DNA of 64,000 nucleotides, taken from Spirochaetaceae bacterium. Lineage in GTDB: Bacteria > Spirochaetota > Spirochaetia > CADAEX01. Position 1 is the stretch's first letter. Each line of letters opens with the position of its first letter. Under the pieces are notes generated by a model. It searched no databases. It was not told where the DNA came from and saw only the letters and a list, made by a program, of their open reading frames with translations. Below, one piece after another: positions 21,158-28,703 of the stretch. The stretch lies in the NCBI GenBank assembly GCA_009780675.1, contig WQZP01000006.1, positions 1 through 64,000 of the forward strand, written 5' to 3'. A program made the translations under genes and the position numbers.

Positions 21158-21418
21158 CTAACGAGAAGCATCCTGGATGCGCTTGCTTTCTTCTATTATT
21201 ACTTTGTAAAGTTTTTCAACAAACACAGGGTCAAGAAGCGAGTGGTTGTTGCTTGCGATGGTTGTAACTTTTTTAAAAACTTTCTGCTCTCTCTTTTTAT
21301 CTTCACTTTTTTCTTTGAACTTTCTAACCATAACTGCCTGCTGCATTCTTTCATCCAGAAGTTTTAAAATTTGTTGATCTATTTTATCTATATTTTCCCT
21401 AATTAAATTAATGTCCAT
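21158..21418 (-). CDS. Chorismate mutase (AroQ type), last gene of the aro operon
   Basis: 86 residues: NLIRENIDKIDQQILKLLDERMQQAVMVRKFKEKSEDKKREQ, then VFVEKLYKVIIEESKRIQ, the three-helix AroQ fold with its conserved Arg, Lys and Glu/Gln positions. It converts chorismate to prephenate, the branch toward Phe and Tyr. It lies 13 bases after aroC, so the operon ends by committing chorismate to exactly the two amino acids coded in the leader peptide. In Bacillus this domain is fused to DAHP synthase; here it is separate. Confidence 0.9.
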   Translation of the reverse strand: MDINLIRENIDKIDQQILKLLDERMQQAVMVRKFKEKSEDKKREQKVFKKVTTIASNNHSLLDPVFVEKLYKVIIEESKRIQDASR

Positions 21419-21431
21419 ATTTGTCCCTTTT

Positions 21432-22409
21432 TTACTGACTCCTGTTAATCAAATAAAAATCCGCAATAGCAATAGCTGCTGCTGCTTCTATAACAGGGGG
21501 AATGCGCAACGCAAAACAGGTATCATGCCTCCCGCCTGCAGCAAGTTCTTCTATTTTATTTGTTTTAAAGTTATAAGTGTTTTGAATTGCTGAAATTGTT
21601 GCAGTAGGTTTTACAGCAACACGGAAAACCACTTCATTGCTGTTTGTGATCCCGCCGTTGATTCCACCATGATTATTTGTTGCGGTTTTACCATCAGCAG
21701 AGATAATAATATCATTATGCTCGCTCCCTTTCATGGCCGCTGCCTTAAAGCCTGCTCCGAATTCTATTCCCCGAATCCCGGGAATCGCGAAAATTATATG
21801 GCTTATCATTGATTCAAATGAGTCAAAAAAAGGCTCTCCAAGTCCTGGCTTGATATTTTTTATCCTGCATTCAACTATCCCACCTATAGAATCTTTTTTC
21901 TCTTCTGCGGATTTTATTGTGCTTTCTATATCAGTCATCCCGCCTGCTTCTATAAGTGAAGCAGATATTTCCGCGCCGTCTATAATTTTTTTCGCAATAA
22001 CACCTGCAGCCACAAGAGGAGCTGTAAGCCTGCCGGAAAAATGGCCTCCTCCCCGCAAATCACTAAACCCCTTATATTTTATTTTTGATGTAAAATCTGC
22101 GTGGCCTGGTCTGGGTGTATCAATAAATTTTTCATAATCCGAAGATAATGTATCTTTATTTTCAAAAATTATTGTAATGGGAGCGCCTGTTGTTTTTTCT
22201 TTGTATATACCGGAAATGATTTTAGGAATATCGCTCTCGATCCTGGCGGTTGTCCCTTGCTTTCCGGATTTTCTTCTGAGCAAATCTTTTTCAAAATCTT
22301 TTTCTGTTACTGTAATGCCCACAGGAGTTCCGTCTATTACAATACCTATTTCTTTGCCATGAGATTCTCCAAAAATAGATACCCTGAATACTCTGCCAAA
22401 ACTATTCAT
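21432..22409 (-). CDS. aroC: Chorismate synthase
   Basis: Step seven: EPSP to chorismate, with reduced FMN. From ATG 22409 (MNSFGRVFRVSIFGESHG) the protein has about 325 residues, a little shorter than most. Signature regions: FGESHGKEIGIVIDGTPVGI, GKQGTTARIESD, PGHADFTSKIKYKGFSDLRGGGHFSGRLTA, GIEFGAGF, TNNHGGINGGITN and GRHDTCFALRIPPVIEA. The ATG has GGAGGG 8 bases upstream, better than the TTG at 22424. It overlaps the aroA stop by 8 bases, indicating coupling. Confidence 0.94.
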   Translation of the reverse strand: MNSFGRVFRVSIFGESHGKEIGIVIDGTPVGITVTEKDFEKDLLRRKSGKQGTTARIESDIPKIISGIYKEKTTGAPITIIFENKDTLSSDYEKFIDTPRPGHADFTSKIKYKGFSDLRGGGHFSGRLTAPLVAAGVIAKKIIDGAEISASLIEAGGMTDIESTIKSAEEKKDSIGGIVECRIKNIKPGLGEPFFDSFESMISHIIFAIPGIRGIEFGAGFKAAAMKGSEHNDIIISADGKTATNNHGGINGGITNSNEVVFRVAVKPTATISAIQNTYNFKTNKIEELAAGGRHDTCFALRIPPVIEAAAAIAIADFYLINRSQ

Positions 22410-23703
22410 CCACTTGCCCTCCAATAAGCATCAAGTCATTATAAAAATCAGGATAAGATTTTTCAACAGCTTCTGCGTTTTCAATCTCTACTTTTACGCC
22501 ACCTATTGCAGATGCAGCCGCAATAGCCATTGCGATCCTGTGGTCATTGTGGGAGTTGCCTTTAAAACTTTGGATACCCCTTCCGCCAACAACAGAAATC
22601 GTTTTCCCATTTGATTTTATATCTACTCCAGCCTTTGAAAATTCTTCTAAAAGGGTAAGCTCCCTGTCAGACTCTTTGTGTTTAAGCCTTTCAACCCCAT
22701 GTATTAATGATGTGCCGCTGCAGCCCGAAGCCAGTGCCACAAGTGGGGGAAAAAGATCCGGGCACTCAGATGCATTGAATTCAAAAGGCAATAATAAAGG
22801 AGTTGTCCTTTTTAGGGTGATAAAATTATTACCAGATGTTCCGATTTTCAAACCACAAGCTGACAACACTTCAACAATTGCTTTGTCTGCCTGCTTTGAA
22901 TCAATATCCAGGTTATCTATCTCAATAGAACCTTCGCTTGAGAGCGCTGCTGCCACAAGGAGAAATGACGCAGAAGACCAGTCCCCTTCAGCCTCTATAA
23001 TTCCAGGGGTTTTGTATTTTTGACCTCCGTTTATTTCAAATAAACTGTAGTTGTTATTTATGATTTCACAACCAAATTTTTTCGCAAGGTCGATTGTTAA
23101 ATTTATATAAGGCTTACTTTTTAAATTATTTACTTTTATTTCCGAATTTCCTTTAGCAGCAGGCAACGCTAAAAGGAGTCCTGTCAAAATCTGGGAACTT
23201 AATGAGCCGTCAATCTCTGCAGAGCCTCCTGCAAGCTGCCCACAAACAGCAACAGGGGGGAACCCTCCATTATCCGAGAGTTTTACTCCAAATTGAGAGA
23301 GTGTTTCAACAATGATCGATGAAGGTCTTTTGCTTAAAGAACCTGCTGCGTTAAATTCAAAACAACAGTTATTAAGCGAAACCACTGAGGAAAACATTCT
23401 TAAGGCAAGCCCGGACTCTCCACAAAAAAGCTTTACCACATTTTTGTTTTTATCAAGGTTTTCCATTTTTCCCCTGCTGTCAATATAAATGGCAGAAGAT
23501 GTTTCTGATACTTCTGCGCCAAGAGACCTGATCATCCCTAATGCAGCATCAACATCATTACAGCATACAGGGTTTATAATTTTAGTCTCCCCTTGAGAAA
23601 GCCAGGAGAGCGCAACAATTCTTTGCAAAGCGCTTTTTGAGGATGGCGCTTTAAGCTTGCCCAGGCAAGGCCTAACTTTCGAAAACTGGACTAATTTCTT
23701 CAT
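22402..23703 (-). CDS. aroA: EPSP synthase (3-phosphoshikimate 1-carboxyvinyltransferase)
   Basis: 433 residues. Step six. Motifs of both repeated domains: SSKSALQRIVALSWLSQGE, GESGLALRMFSSVV, RPSSIIVETL, GSLSSQILTGLLLALPAAKG, SKPYINLTIDLAKKFG, GDWSSASFLLVAAAL, HKESDRELTLLEEFSKAG and NDHRIAMAIAAAS. The usual LPGSKS is varied to the weaker LKAPSSKSA near residue 20. The AroE-AroK gene overlaps its start by 32 bases. Confidence 0.94.
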   Translation of the reverse strand: MKKLVQFSKVRPCLGKLKAPSSKSALQRIVALSWLSQGETKIINPVCCNDVDAALGMIRSLGAEVSETSSAIYIDSRGKMENLDKNKNVVKLFCGESGLALRMFSSVVSLNNCCFEFNAAGSLSKRPSSIIVETLSQFGVKLSDNGGFPPVAVCGQLAGGSAEIDGSLSSQILTGLLLALPAAKGNSEIKVNNLKSKPYINLTIDLAKKFGCEIINNNYSLFEINGGQKYKTPGIIEAEGDWSSASFLLVAAALSSEGSIEIDNLDIDSKQADKAIVEVLSACGLKIGTSGNNFITLKRTTPLLLPFEFNASECPDLFPPLVALASGCSGTSLIHGVERLKHKESDRELTLLEEFSKAGVDIKSNGKTISVVGGRGIQSFKGNSHNDHRIAMAIAAASAIGGVKVEIENAEAVEKSYPDFYNDLMLIGGQVDE

Positions 23704-25018
23704 AAAGTTTTTTTGCTATCTCTTGAGCACTCCTTTTTGATGAATCTATTATAAGCGATGATGTAATGCCATAAAAGTCTATTCTTTCATTAAAAAGTTT
23801 TATAGCTTCTTCGTATTTTTTTTCTGTATTTAAAAGAGGTCTTGAGTTATCTGTTATTCTTTTTACTGAAACTTCCGGAGACGCAACAAGCCATACAGGA
23901 AAACTTTTGGATGCAATTATCTTTCTGTTTTCACTATCTTTTACAGCGCCACCTCCGCAAGTTATAACTTTCCCTTTTTCATTATTAAAAACAGTTTCTA
24001 TAATTCTTTTTTCTATTTGCCGAAAATAGTTTTCATTTTTGTTTTTAAAAATATCAGCAATAGTCATTTCTTCTTTTTTTTCAATCTCTTTATCTATATC
24101 AATAAAATCTGTATCAAAAAGATCTGCAACTATTTCGCCTGCAGTTGTTTTACCACTTCCCATAAACCCTATTAGGGCTATGTTATTTTTTTTACTATAA
24201 ACCAAATTTTCTTCGGTAAATTGTTCAACAGAGTTATCCGGTAGTTTTAGTCCTGTAAAAATTTCAAATGAAGCCATTGCCTGATTTACAAGCCATTTCA
24301 AGCCTGAAATAGTTTGCAATCCATTTTCTGCCGCTGTTCGTGTTAAAACACTGTTTTTATAATTTGCATCAAAAATAATTGCGTTTTTTTTGACTTTGCT
24401 TATATCAAAAAAAATATCATTTACAGGAAGCGCATTTACAACAATATCTGCGTTACAAATCTGTTTGTTTATATCTTCAAGAGCAGCAGCAGTACAATTT
24501 TTTATCCATTTTATTTTTTCAAAAGCTTTTGAAGCTGTTCTGTTAAAAACAGTAACATCAAATCCAGCAAGGGAAAGTCCGTGCGCAGCAGCAATACCTG
24601 CTCCACCTGCTCCGATCACAAAAGCGGTTTTCCCTTTTTTTGAACCTTCTATAATACACGCCGGGGAAATATTTTTGACAGACTCATATACGCCAAGATA
24701 ATCTGTATTAAATAGAGATATATCCCTGCCGTTATCCGCGATAACAGCAGTATTGGCAGCCATAAGTTTTTCAACAATATTGTCACGCAAATGCGGCAAG
24801 CACGCCTCTGCTGCATCCTGCTTAAAAGGAGAAGTAATATTCAGGCCAGTTATCCCTGTTATTTTTGCAACATTGATCACCTCATCAAAAGAATCTGCTG
24901 CTATTCTGGAGTAGAATCCCGAAAGATCCATCAGCTCAAACAGTTTATAAAATATATTGGGACTTATGCTGTGCGCTATTGGATTTCCCGCAACAGCAAG
25001 CCTTGTACTGTCACCCAC
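23672..25018 (-). CDS. Bifunctional shikimate dehydrogenase - shikimate kinase
   Basis: 448 residues, a fusion of steps four and five. Residues 1-270 are AroE: NPIAHSISPNIF, LNITSPFKQDAAEACL with the catalytic Lys, FNTDYLG with the catalytic Asp, and the NADP fold VIGAGGAGIAAAHGLSLAGFDVTVFNRT. Residues about 278-448 are AroK: Walker A GFMGSGKTTAGEI, FIDIDKEIEKKEEMTIADIF, NYFRQIEKRI, ITCGGGAV and a lid Arg in DNSRPLL. The junction (VEQFTEENLVYSKKNN) is short. The C-terminus overlaps aroA by 32 bases, longer than the usual coupling overlap. The fusion could channel shikimate between sites. Confidence 0.94.
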   Translation of the reverse strand: MGDSTRLAVAGNPIAHSISPNIFYKLFELMDLSGFYSRIAADSFDEVINVAKITGITGLNITSPFKQDAAEACLPHLRDNIVEKLMAANTAVIADNGRDISLFNTDYLGVYESVKNISPACIIEGSKKGKTAFVIGAGGAGIAAAHGLSLAGFDVTVFNRTASKAFEKIKWIKNCTAAALEDINKQICNADIVVNALPVNDIFFDISKVKKNAIIFDANYKNSVLTRTAAENGLQTISGLKWLVNQAMASFEIFTGLKLPDNSVEQFTEENLVYSKKNNIALIGFMGSGKTTAGEIVADLFDTDFIDIDKEIEKKEEMTIADIFKNKNENYFRQIEKRIIETVFNNEKGKVITCGGGAVKDSENRKIIASKSFPVWLVASPEVSVKRITDNSRPLLNTEKKYEEAIKLFNERIDFYGITSSLIIDSSKRSAQEIAKKLYEEISPVFES

Positions 25019-25024
25019 TTTGCA

Positions 25025-25714
25025 CTACCACCCGCTTACAATTTTTCTTTGCTCTTCCAATACTGTTTTGTAATCAAGCTGCCCCTCTGCTGTACAGCTT
25101 TTCATATCATGGCTTGCATAGGTGAAAAAACTCCCAACTGCTTCTGACAAAATTCTGGCTCTGCCCCCATGCTCACCCATTCCTGCTATAACTATTTTTA
25201 TAGCGTTATAATAATCAGGTATACTTAATAGCCTTTCAACATCTGCCGGGTCTTTTACTGTGCAGGCGATTTTTACAATATCAGCGCCTTTGTCCAGAGC
25301 CTGGACTATTACTTTATCAAGGATGTCAAGAGAAGGGGTTTCTTCATAGTTGTGATACGAAATTATAAATTGCCGGCCATTATTCACGCAAAGCGATCTT
25401 GCGGAAGAAATAAATTCAATACTTTCGTTTATATCAATATCAACATAGGCTGCGCCTGATTCTACTGCTGTTTTTAATACTGAAAGACGCTTTGCGTCAG
25501 TATCCGCATCCGCATCCGCATTCGCGTTCGCATTGGGAGCATCCTTTTTTCTATATGTTGCAATAAGATTTTTATGAGAAGAAAATATTTTTTCAGTAAT
25601 TTTATTATCAACTGTTTCAAGCAGATCAAGCCTCACTTCTGCAAAATCATACAAAGATGCCACTTTAATTGCATTTTTATAATCTTTTTCACCGACCGAT
25701 ACACATATCATCAA
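25025..25714 (-). CDS. aroD: 3-dehydroquinate dehydratase, type I
   Basis: 229 residues. Step three, forming 3-dehydroshikimate. Class I features: FAEVRLDLLE, LIATYR, AYVDIDI, the catalytic His in FIISYHNYEETP, the Schiff-base Lys in GADIVKIACTVKDPADVERLL, IAGMGEHGGRARIL and GSFFTYASHD, with a C-terminal EGQL. Between IATYRKKD and the next helix it carries an insert of alternating Asn-Ala and Asp-Ala pairs encoded by a hexanucleotide repeat (about 25500-25540). Two adjacent ATGs at 25714/25711 both fit. It overlaps aroB by 26 bases. Confidence 0.93.
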   Translation of the reverse strand: MMICVSVGEKDYKNAIKVASLYDFAEVRLDLLETVDNKITEKIFSSHKNLIATYRKKDAPNANANADADADTDAKRLSVLKTAVESGAAYVDIDINESIEFISSARSLCVNNGRQFIISYHNYEETPSLDILDKVIVQALDKGADIVKIACTVKDPADVERLLSIPDYYNAIKIVIAGMGEHGGRARILSEAVGSFFTYASHDMKSCTAEGQLDYKTVLEEQRKIVSGW

Positions 25715-26771
25715 TAGCCTCCATAACTGTTTTTAGTTTTATGCTGGATATAAAAACATCTCCAATATTTTTTATAAATATAAAATCTATGTTATCTCCC
25801 TTTTTTTTCTTGTCATGAGAAAGCGCTTCTTTTATTTTATCTCTTTTGCTTTTTATTTCCAAAGGAACACCTGTAAGCTCAAGTAAGGACGTTATTTTTC
25901 TATTTTCTTCAATATCTAGAAATCCTTCTCGTGTTGATAAATCACTTGCAAATTTTATCCCTTTAATTACAGCAGCTCCATGCGGAATATTTTCTGTAAT
26001 TTCTATAGCATGACCCAAAGTGTGACCAAGATTTAAAATTTTGCGCAAGCCTGCTTCTTTTTCATCTTTCTCCACTATATCTGCCTTGATTATAAGAGAT
26101 TCCTCAATGAAATAAGATAAAAGACTATTTACCTCGCTGCAAGGCAGGGCATTGTCCTGCAGGCGGTTTTCTTTGAATTTAGAAATAACAGAGCTTAGAT
26201 TATCAGCCAAAAGATCAAAAAAACCTTTTCCGGAAATTATAGAGTATTTGATTATTTCCCCTATCCCGCTTATAAACTCTTTTATATCAAGAGTTTTCAA
26301 AGTATCAAGATCAATAATTATAAAATCAGGCTGGGAAAAAGTCCCTATAATATTTTTGATCCCCATAAAATTGACGCCATTTTTTCCGCCAATACCTGCA
26401 TCTACCTGGGCAAGCAGGGTTGTTGAAACAAATCCATACCTTACCCCTCTTAAGAAAGTGGAAGCAACAAATCCTGTAATATCAGTAACAACACCGCCGC
26501 CTATGCCAACAATAAAACTGTGTCGGTCGCAGGAGAATCCCAGAAGTTTTTCATAAATTTTCGCAACAGTTTCAATATTTTTGCTTTCCTCGCTGCCTTC
26601 TATAGTTATTGTTTTAAAATTACTAAAACTATTGCCATAAAGGTGCGCTATATTGTTATCTGTAATAATAACTGTTTTATCAATGTTGCAGTATTTATGG
26701 AGATTTTCCAGTTTTTCATTGATTAATAATCTGCTTTCCCCTGATTTGGCAGTTACTTTAATTGTTTTCAT
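25689..26771 (-). CDS. aroB: 3-dehydroquinate synthase
   Basis: 360 residues. Step two: DAHP to 3-dehydroquinate with NAD and a divalent metal. Motifs: VIITDNNIAHLYG, FIVGIGGGVVTDITGFVASTFLRGVRYGFVSTTLLAQVDAGIGGKNGVN, GEIIKYSIISG with the metal Glu and following Lys, and LNLGHTLGHAIE plus IPHGAAVIKG giving the metal His residues. The family's usual GKTGVN is GKNGVN here, a conservative change. It begins 2 bases after the DAHP synthase stop. Confidence 0.94.
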   Translation of the reverse strand: MKTIKVTAKSGESRLLINEKLENLHKYCNIDKTVIITDNNIAHLYGNSFSNFKTITIEGSEESKNIETVAKIYEKLLGFSCDRHSFIVGIGGGVVTDITGFVASTFLRGVRYGFVSTTLLAQVDAGIGGKNGVNFMGIKNIIGTFSQPDFIIIDLDTLKTLDIKEFISGIGEIIKYSIISGKGFFDLLADNLSSVISKFKENRLQDNALPCSEVNSLLSYFIEESLIIKADIVEKDEKEAGLRKILNLGHTLGHAIEITENIPHGAAVIKGIKFASDLSTREGFLDIEENRKITSLLELTGVPLEIKSKRDKIKEALSHDKKKKGDNIDFIFIKNIGDVFISSIKLKTVMEAIDDMCIGR

Positions 26772-26773
26772 TT

Positions 26774-27604
26774 TTATCCAATATCTTCTACAACTATGGT
26801 GTCATAGCTTTGTTTTAACTTCTTTATTTTGTGCATGATTTTTGCGAAATCTTCCGGACTAAGCTGCTGATCTGCGTCGCTCATGGCTTTTTCTGGCTCA
26901 ATATGGACCTCAAGCATAATACCATCAGCCCCTGCGAAAATAGAGGCATAAGTCATGGATTCTATGAGGCTTAACTTTCCTGTTCCGTGCGAAGGGTCAA
27001 CAAAAACAGGGAGATGCGTTACTTCTTTCGCTGCAGGGACAATGCTGAGGTCAAGTGTGTTTCTGGTATATGTCTCAAATGTTCTTATTCCCCTCTCGCA
27101 CAGAATAACATTCGGGTTCCCTTCTGCAAGTATGTATTCTGCGCAGTTAAGCCATTCAGAAAGGGTCGAGTGTACCCCTCTTTTTAAAAGTATGGGCTTT
27201 TTTGACTTTCCTGCTTCTTTTAAAAGGGGGAAGTTTTGCATATTTCTGGCGCCTATCTGGATAACATCAGCATATTCACATACCCATGAGACAGCCCTTG
27301 CATCTACAACTTCGGTAACTATTGGCAATCCAGTCTCTTTACGGGCGTTTTCAAGGATTTTGAGCCCTTTTATTCCCAATCCCTGAAAAGTATACGGAGA
27401 TGTTCTTGGTTTAAAAGCGCCGCCCCTTAGCATATCTGCGCCTGCTTTTTTTACTGCTATTGCTGTTTTTATGGTTTGCTCTTCTGATTCAACGCTGCAT
27501 GGGCCTGCTATAACGACAAGATCTTTGCCAACTTGTATACCATTTATATCAACAATAGTACGTTTTTTCTCTTTACCAATTCTTGCAAGCTTTAAATCTT
27601 CCAT
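26774..27604 (-). CDS. aroF: DAHP synthase (3-deoxy-7-phosphoheptulonate synthase), first gene of the aro operon
   Basis: 276 residues. Step one: PEP plus erythrose 4-phosphate. It is the KDO8P-synthase-like type: VVIAGPCSVESEEQTIKTAIAVKKAGADMLRGGAFKPRTSPYTFQG, IQIGARNMQNFPLLKEAGK, LLKRGVHSTLSEWLNCAEYI, LCERGIRTF, VFVDPSHGTGK and DGIMLEVH. It lacks the regulatory chorismate-mutase or ferredoxin-like domain found in relatives, so feedback control may be at transcription through the leader upstream. The ATG has AGGAGA 7 bases before it. Confidence 0.94.
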   Translation of the reverse strand: MEDLKLARIGKEKKRTIVDINGIQVGKDLVVIAGPCSVESEEQTIKTAIAVKKAGADMLRGGAFKPRTSPYTFQGLGIKGLKILENARKETGLPIVTEVVDARAVSWVCEYADVIQIGARNMQNFPLLKEAGKSKKPILLKRGVHSTLSEWLNCAEYILAEGNPNVILCERGIRTFETYTRNTLDLSIVPAAKEVTHLPVFVDPSHGTGKLSLIESMTYASIFAGADGIMLEVHIEPEKAMSDADQQLSPEDFAKIMHKIKKLKQSYDTIVVEDIG

Positions 27605-27750: not shown

Positions 27751-27784
27751 ATAAAAAAGCCGTGACCTTGTGATCACGGCTCTT
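27751..27784 (-). terminator. Transcription attenuator of the aro operon
   Basis: On the minus strand AGCCGTGA (27781-27774), loop of 8, TCACGGCT (27765-27758), then TTTTTT. There is no minus-strand gene upstream to terminate, since the upstream genes are on the plus strand. AAGAGCC (27784-27778) overlaps the 5' arm and can pair with GGaCUCUU (27822-27815) at the end of the leader peptide reading frame, giving a competing antiterminator. Confidence 0.85.
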
Positions 27785-27805
27785 AATAGACCTGTGTCAA
27801 AGGTA

Positions 27806-27862
27806 TCACAATCCAAGAGTCCTATAAAAAAAATAAAAATATTTGCTGTTTTTAATAATCAT
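27806..27862 (-). CDS. Aromatic leader peptide of the aro operon (18 aa)
   Basis: ATG at 27862 with CGGA about 7 bases upstream opens an 18-codon frame: MIIKNSK, then Tyr-Phe-Tyr-Phe-Phe-Tyr, then RTLGL and TGA at 27808-27806. Six consecutive Phe/Tyr codons just before an antiterminator/terminator pair is the hallmark of ribosome-mediated attenuation (as in pheA, pheST and trp leaders). A ribosome stalled on these codons leaves GGaCUCUU free to pair; one that reaches the stop covers it and lets the terminator fold. It lacks Trp codons, fitting control by Phe and Tyr. Confidence 0.85.
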   Translation of the reverse strand: MIIKNSKYFYFFYRTLGL

Positions 27863-27883
27863 AAAAAAATTCCGTTGTATTCT

Positions 27884-27912
27884 CATATAATATTTTTATT
27901 TTTTTTTGTCAA
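27884..27912 (-). promoter_or_regulatory. Promoter of the aro operon
   Basis: Perfect TTGACA (27912-27907), spacer of 17 A/T-rich bases, TATATG (27889-27884). Predicted start near 27877, giving a leader of about 270 bases. A divergent promoter for the histone-like gene must overlap this region. Confidence 0.7.
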
Positions 27913-28010: not shown

Positions 28011-28703
28011 ATGGCTAAAAAAGCAACTTCAACTAAAAAGGCAGCGCCAGCTAAAAAAGCAGCTCCAGTCAAAAAGGCAGCGCCAGCAAAAAAGGCGGCT
28101 CCAGTTAAAAAAGCAGCGCCAGCAAAAAAGGCAGCTCCAGCTAAAAAAGCAGCGCCAGCTAAAAAGGCAGCTCCGGAAATCAAAATGTCCGAAGAGATGA
28201 AAAAGCTTTTACAAAAAGGGACTATTGACGCTTACGTTGATTATTCTATTAAAAGTTCTCTGACTCCTGCAGAAAAAAGATTTGTTACGCGCAAATGGCT
28301 GGATAAGACAGGATTAACGATTGAGGATATCAACTACACAAGAAACAGGCATCCTTACTGGAAAAAAGTAAAAATGAACGGCGCTGCTGAACGCAGAAAA
28401 ACAAGAATGGAGAAGTATGATTTCAGCGGAGGAGCTCATAAAAAATGGGAAAAAGAAGAACTTCTTGAGTTTATCGACCTTAATCCTAAACATGCTGATT
28501 TTGAGTTGGCAGAGATCTTCAAATGCTCAATACCATCAGTACAAGGGATAAGAAGGCTTTATAACCTCGCTTCAAAAATTCTTGAGTTTGAAGGGAAAAA
28601 GAAAGCAAAGCCAGCAATGCATCAATTAATGCTTATAAATGAAAAAGCATTAAGAGAAATGTACAAAAAAATGAATCCAGCAGCTGGAAAAAAGAAAAAA
28701 TAG
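28011..28703 (+). CDS. Histone H1-like protein with AAPAKK repeats and C-terminal domain
   Basis: 230 residues. The first 55 residues are tandem AAPAKK/AAPVKK units like the tails of eukaryotic H1 and bacterial HC2-type proteins, presumably binding DNA by charge. The remainder is a folded basic domain: MSEEMKKLLQKGTIDAYVDYSI, TPAEKRFVTRKWLDKTGLTIEDINYTRNRHPYWKK, KWEKEELLEFIDLNPKHADFELAEIFKCSIPSVQGIRRLY, which looks like a helix-turn-helix (ELAEIFKCSIPSVQGIRR). So it may be a nucleoid or regulatory DNA-binding protein. GAGGG precedes the ATG. It is divergent from the aro leader. Confidence 0.75.
   Translation: MAKKATSTKKAAPAKKAAPVKKAAPAKKAAPVKKAAPAKKAAPAKKAAPAKKAAPEIKMSEEMKKLLQKGTIDAYVDYSIKSSLTPAEKRFVTRKWLDKTGLTIEDINYTRNRHPYWKKVKMNGAAERRKTRMEKYDFSGGAHKKWEKEELLEFIDLNPKHADFELAEIFKCSIPSVQGIRRLYNLASKILEFEGKKKAKPAMHQLMLINEKALREMYKKMNPAAGKKKK

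Follow-up and report, generated by a model that had tools for sequence, protein, structure and literature searches.

A probable Phe/Tyr leader-peptide attenuator before a seven-gene shikimate operon in a termite-gut-type spirochaete, with similar leaders before aroF in other lineages

The window considered here, by which we mean the whole stretch of 64,000 nucleotides that was analysed, comes from a termite-gut-type spirochaete and carries a seven-gene operon, aroF-aroB-aroD-aroEK-aroA-aroC plus aroQ, on its minus strand. The genes from aroF to aroC overlap or nearly touch, and aroQ starts 13 nt past aroC. Their positions are as follows.

26774-27604, minus strand: aroF, DAHP synthase of the TIGR01361 type, with its ATG at 27604
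25689-26771, minus strand: aroB, 3-dehydroquinate synthase
25025-25714, minus strand: aroD, type I 3-dehydroquinate dehydratase, its best match falling short of the TIGR01093 cut-off
23672-25018, minus strand: aroE-aroK fusion, shikimate dehydrogenase plus shikimate kinase, neither half reaching the curated cut-offs for full proteins
22402-23703, minus strand: aroA, EPSP synthase
21432-22424, minus strand: aroC, chorismate synthase
21158-21418, minus strand: aroQ, chorismate mutase of 86 amino acids, an ORF call with a PF01817 match (G000:C6:21173-21403)

The preliminary description of this DNA had recognized a complete, ordered aro operon and had missed aroQ, the seventh gene. Chorismate mutase also lies 3' of aroC in the genus mates G001 and G003; with it, the operon encodes all steps from DAHP to prephenate and is committed to the Phe/Tyr branch. 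Searches for three enzymes beyond chorismate, each of which found its match in all 14 control genomes, gave nothing in this genus: no member of the chorismate-binding TrpE/PabB family was matched in the window's own genome (G000, 99% complete), G001 or G003, and neither prephenate dehydratase nor prephenate dehydrogenase (TyrA) was found in the own genome or the genus mates. Prephenate dehydratase was present in all eight of the other tested genomes with aromatic leaders. The lack of PheA and TyrA matches makes it less certain that the pathway yields Phe or Tyr here, which counts against a Phe/Tyr attenuator.

Upstream of aroF lies a compact series of elements, of which the promoter boxes, the GGA and the aromatic run were read directly from the sequence and the hairpins come from folding.

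27907-27912, minus strand: -35 element TTGACA, kept in three genus mates
27884-27889, minus strand: -10 element TATATG after a 17-nt spacer (16-17 nt in the genus mates)
27871-27873, minus strand: Shine-Dalgarno-like GGA, 8 nt 5' of the leader ATG, kept in the genus mates
27806-27862, minus strand: leader ORF MIIKNSKYFYFFYRTLGL, 18 codons plus TGA, its frame free of indels in four genomes
27824-27841, minus strand: six consecutive Phe/Tyr codons (YFYFFY), the putative sensor, kept in the genus mates
27815-27822, minus strand: candidate antiterminator 5' arm GGaCUCUU (GGACUCUU), with the lowest energy among the upstream pairings of the window
27788-27799, minus strand: alternative antiterminator 5' arm UGACACaGGUCU, 6 nt 3' of the leader stop, from the RNAalifold consensus of truncated RNAs
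27771-27784, minus strand: segment AAGAGCCGUGAUCA, shared by the antiterminator 3' arm and the terminator 5' arm, from folding, consensus and pair conservation
27753-27784, minus strand: intrinsic terminator hairpin with arms 27784-27772 and 27767-27755 and U tract 27758-27753, from folding, with 13 pairs in four genomes

The TTGACA/TATATG promoter, the 18-codon frame with its YFYFFY run and the intrinsic terminator had all been named in the preliminary description, and all three were recovered. Our promoter scanner omitted the first of these, TATATG failing its rule for position 6; from the position of the promoter, transcription is expected to start near 27877 on the minus strand. The leader has a weak Shine-Dalgarno element (the GGA), an ATG at 27862-27860 and a TGA stop at 27808-27806. 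A search of the own genome returned the window copy of this region only, and matches to T-box and other Rfam families, including the amino-acid leader families, all fell far below their gathering scores.

The aromatic codons, TAT TTT TAT TTT TTT TAT at 27841-27824, are codons for end products of the pathway, as expected of an attenuator of the leader-peptide class, and they lie in a short, putatively translatable ORF between the promoter and the first structural gene. The absence of TrpE from the genus fits a leader without Trp codons. Among the 1,622 short ORFs of the 64-kb window, the aro leader is the only one with a Phe/Tyr run of at least six codons. The interval between promoter and terminator is T-rich, and in first-order shuffles of it 78 of 20,000 bore such a run (p ~0.004); in a spacer of this composition, the improbability of the run taken by itself is no more than moderate. 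What makes the Phe/Tyr leader convincing is its conservation in three genus mates.

These mates (G001, G002 and G003, the loci L003, L112 and L002, respectively), among which the named records are the spirochaete MAGs Cu122P1bin9 and Lab288P3bin165, all keep the promoter and the GGA, the leader with its start codon, frame and aromatic run, and the terminator behind it. Their leaders read MIIKKCIYFYYFYKTLYL (G002), MIIRKCTYFYYFYRTLYL (G003) and MINKRSVYFFTFFRTRY (G001), and the runs in the four genomes are YFYFFY, YFYYFY, YFYYFY and YFFTFF, with changes at aromatic positions that interchange F and Y or are synonymous (TAT/TAC). Between the -10 element and the ATG the four genomes differ by indels that reach nine bases, whereas the leader codons are free of them. 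For the aromatic leader of one mate, L002, p was 0.08 in a looser scan of upstream regions. An alignment of relatives, which had been proposed as a check on the preliminary description, thus turned out in its favour: the Phe/Tyr run is maintained in frame and is followed by the same terminator, whose changes preserve pairing.

That terminator, AAGAGCCGUGAUC-ACAA-GGUCACGGCUUUUUU (27784-27753, minus strand), stands between the leader and the structural genes, again as in known attenuators, with a 13-pair stem and a U tract in all four genomes. It is paired in 52 of 52 cells of the alignment, and the substitutions are one-sided ones that keep the pair (G-C/G-U, A-U/G-U, U-G/U-A). The 130-nt RNA from 27879 to 27750 folds at -26.5 kcal/mol, with z = -3.0 against shuffles. 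The terminator scanner missed the hairpin, probably since the stem runs into the U tract; folding shows it clearly. It ends about 150 nt before the aroF ATG, clear of the aroF ribosome-binding site. A role as terminator of an upstream gene was considered and ruled out, since the neighbouring gene (28011-28703, plus strand) is divergent; the hairpin can therefore act only on the aro transcript. The product of that neighbour has an N-terminal tail of AAPAKK repeats and a weak match, below the cut-off, to the family LB099.

Less clear is what would oppose the terminator. The preliminary description had paired GGaCUCUU with AAGAGCC (27784-27778), and both are present where it placed them; its point that AAGAGCC overlaps the terminator 5' arm is also borne out. 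The pairing itself is formed in 25 of 28 cells over the four genomes, being partly broken in two mates, and it has a rival in UGACACaGGUCU (27799-27788) with AGAGCCGUGaUCA (27783-27771), which is formed in 43 of 44. Both candidates overlap the terminator 5' arm. A ribosome terminating at the leader stop would have the second 5' arm within its footprint and so cover it. When a model ribosome advanced from the aromatic run to the stop codon, the predicted upstream fold weakened from -11.4 to -2.6 kcal/mol in the window and from -7.3 to -4.3, -11.5 to -4.3 and -9.4 to -6.2 kcal/mol in the three mates, which is the direction that attenuation requires. The terminator 5' arm paired with upstream RNA no better than shuffles did in three of the four genomes, and the duplexes from an automatic antiterminator search in the genus mates, which took in too much sequence, were not significant. 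The antiterminator is consequently the weak part of the model, with two possible 5' partners; folding makes a switch plausible and offers candidates for its exact form.

With these elements in order and conserved in the genus mates, the leader-peptide reading first put forward in the preliminary description gains support, and we consider it very probable that the locus is a transcription attenuator in which the ribosome acts as a sensor of charged tRNA-Phe and tRNA-Tyr and by which the whole aroF-aroQ operon is controlled. It builds on what the DNA itself presents: a promoter-like site, a leader, an aromatic run, a terminator, the order of these elements, their conservation and the operon behind them. 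Transcription would begin near 27877, and a ribosome would then begin the 18-codon leader. If Phe and Tyr were plentiful, it would run on to the stop codon and cover the segment just beyond, and the terminator at 27784-27753 would form about 150 nt before aroF. If either Phe-tRNA or Tyr-tRNA were scarce, the ribosome would stall in the YFYFFY run, an upstream segment would pair with AGAGCCGUG, the terminator would be blocked and the operon would be transcribed.

Evidence from a wider set of aroF genes bears on this interpretation. From the first upstream scan the rows before L082 were used, and the upstream regions of the genus mates and of the archaeal loci were read separately. An aromatic leader was found in 24 of 78 related aroF upstream regions at p <= 0.05 and in 11 at p <= 0.01. 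For comparison, the same 78 regions gave 0-8 and 0-3, respectively, when scanned with eleven control residue pairs. This bears directly on the idea that the terminator answers to a T-box, a riboswitch or some antiterminator protein and that the aromatic codons are a mere by-product of T-rich DNA. The composition of the spacer, in which such a run is by itself only moderately improbable, and the poor resolution of the antiterminator pairing lend that idea something. We nevertheless consider it very unlikely, given that the T-box and other Rfam families all score below gathering level, that four genomes preserve the start codon, the frame and the aromatic run despite indels in the 5' leader, and that Phe/Tyr is enriched far above any control residue pair.

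Leaders of the same putative design recur in other guises. In a second spirochaete group (L005, L011-L013 and L026) the leaders resemble KSFGFGYFYFYYYGNNIMN, and just 3' of the stop a segment, GAGUUUUAUC, pairs with the loop and the 3' arm of the terminator, an arrangement equalled by only 1-8 of 300 shuffles. Among delta-proteobacterial MAGs, one type of leader, FGRFFFYFRSVHPVI, comes with the pairing of GUCCAUCCGG and CCGGGUGGAC, and another, YCFYFYCGKSPPTR, with that of GUCCGCCCAC and GUGGGCGGGC; here too, RNA near the leader stop (GUCCAUCCGG or GUCCGCCCAC) engages the terminator. The shuffle test was clear for most, not all, members of these spirochaete and delta-proteobacterial groups. 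What is widely conserved is the Phe/Tyr content and not the peptide. Distant relatives thus bear out the preliminary description as well, with different sequences following the same logic before the same gene, and this similarity of logic among unrelated sequences would argue for selection on a sensing device.

The same comparison makes it improbable, to about the same degree as control by a T-box or protein, that the unit is a free-standing small RNA or small-protein gene with its own promoter, 18-codon ORF and terminator and with no regulatory tie to aroF. Promoter and terminator do bound a compact unit of ~125 nt, as that explanation would have it. Yet it would leave aroF with no other convincing promoter: past the terminator there is just one other minus-strand candidate, at 27635-27606, and this 9/12 match directly adjoins the aroF start codon and lies within the shuffle background. 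The unit is, moreover, fixed before aroF in all genus mates, and a free-standing gene would not account for unrelated sequences of like design before aroF in other lineages, where the Phe/Tyr content and not the peptide is conserved.

Two higher-GC spirochaete loci, L007 (2232-2315) and L009 (2840-2926), have aromatic leaders without an obvious U-tract terminator, and their control might be translational. They are what can be said for a third explanation of the window, in which a genuine aromatic leader acts mainly on translation or mRNA stability and not on termination. This is the least probable of the three, the chance of it being slight indeed, because the leader of the window, like those of the genus mates, is directly followed by a strong U-tract terminator, at a distance of ~150 nt from aroF that leaves the ribosome-binding site clear. 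Transcription attenuation remains our reading of the window.

Leaders of this kind are apparently not confined to bacteria, for several of the related loci carry an archaeal label. In 19 of the 196 genomes of the phylum to which L047 belongs, a DAHP synthase was found at an identity of at least 74%, and in 16 of these 19 an aromatic leader precedes aroF (L115-L118, L120-L122 and L124-L132); aroF of L119, L123 and L133 was found without one. The leaders, exemplified by MSNKAKVNNKVFYFFSFSFWY, MSILEGAIKVWNYFFGFFSFSYAY and MEKAKANRFNGFFRYFSFGYFYW, were compared as a set of 19, the 16 genomes together with L059, L071 and L076. Taken one by one, some are not significant in the shuffle test. Most of the 19 contain Trp besides Phe and Tyr, and a TrpE-family match was found in all 16 leader-bearing genomes. 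At the leader stop lies a hairpin, with a usually U-rich loop, whose stem is better than 60 of 60 shuffles in 16 of the 19. For the 17 cases that can be aligned, 133 of the 136 cells of a core of eight pairs are paired, and several of the changes are two-sided; since these stems had been picked for pairing, it is the shuffles that serve as the fair control. TTTATA/TTATAA-like boxes lie ~40-57 nt 5' of many of the leader starts, and the gene order aroF-aroB-aroD-aroEK is common to L047 and L059.

That these are bacterial contigs mis-binned as archaeal was considered and rejected: in G079, G188 and G172 the aro operon shares its contig with a gene for L21e or L24e, ribosomal proteins that of all control genomes only the four archaea matched. 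The leader-bearing genomes are apparently Micrarchaeota. On balance, we think it somewhat probable that an aromatic leader (~21-40 codons that include Phe and Tyr and, as a rule, Trp, of the form FF-F-SFSY), with a TATA-type promoter and a covarying hairpin of usually U-rich loop at its stop codon, also precedes aroF in Archaea. It could act either by U-tract termination or on translation. If it does sense the supply of aminoacyl-tRNA, it would represent ribosome-dependent amino-acid attenuation in Archaea.

The leader-bearing archaea had been predicted to place Trp or His leaders ahead of trpE and hisD as well, and none was found, with one possible exception: a Trp-rich short ORF, MRNGDGCWFDGWAGRFSRWGYALN..., 5' of trpE in G178 (L154), may be a Trp leader or may have arisen by chance. 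In the set L145-L159, many archaeal trpE genes are preceded by a palindrome of the GTACAT...GTAC type near a TTTAAATA promoter, with an apparent divergent regulator gene alongside, and Trp seems to be handled there by a repressor. The scarcity of such leaders neither proves nor disproves the aromatic one. Attenuator-like sequences were once discussed for the trp genes of Haloferax. Our literature search, mostly of non-subscription papers and hence weak evidence, found no description of leader-peptide attenuation in archaea. The long-assumed boundary by which such attenuation is a bacterial device is made directly testable by this archaeal counterpart.

Among established systems, the enterobacterial attenuators of pheL-pheA and pheST have a Phe-rich leader and alternative antiterminator and terminator structures, with the position of the ribosome as the sensor (PMC11802643). 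They control the terminal Phe branch or a synthetase, whereas the leader described here precedes the common pathway; their codons are for Phe and those of the window are mixed Phe/Tyr, and the window matches no Rfam leader family. The trpL-trpE system is similar in its leader, stall codons, mutually exclusive stems and U-tract terminator, and differs in its Trp codons and Trp genes, the genus of the window having no detectable TrpE. Attenuators have also been predicted before large aromatic (tyrA/aro) supraoperons, for example in Desulfovibrio vulgaris (Merino database, PMC1173090); the predictions concern terminators and antiterminators around tyrA, and the term 'leader peptide' is absent from that paper.

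The closest likeness is to Corynebacterium glutamicum, where, as reported in PMC11802643 (citing Neshat et al. 2014), an AroR leader containing Phe-Tyr-Phe precedes the aroF operon and transcription rises under Phe limitation through ribosome stalling. The two share an aromatic leader peptide before an operon with DAHP synthase. AroR belongs to another phylum and is unrelated in sequence, with three aromatic residues as opposed to six in the window; Tyr availability is without effect in C. glutamicum, according to the same source; and the window, unlike C. glutamicum as described there, has all the genes to chorismate and chorismate mutase behind its leader. The preliminary description had regarded an attenuator of this type before a complete aro operon in a spirochaete-like genome as new. 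The principle is already known from aroR-aroF, and what is new to the sources searched, as far as these go, is the spirochaete, complete-pathway setting; no description of a spirochaete aro attenuator was found in the literature, the search again covering mostly non-subscription papers and being weak evidence. In this uncultured lineage of spirochaetes, a single Phe/Tyr sensor would stand over the common pathway as a whole, DAHP synthase through chorismate mutase. Aromatic leaders unrelated in sequence are also found ahead of the same gene in several phyla. As a mechanism, this is a known and ordinary one, and it is the archaeal relatives that provide the surprise.
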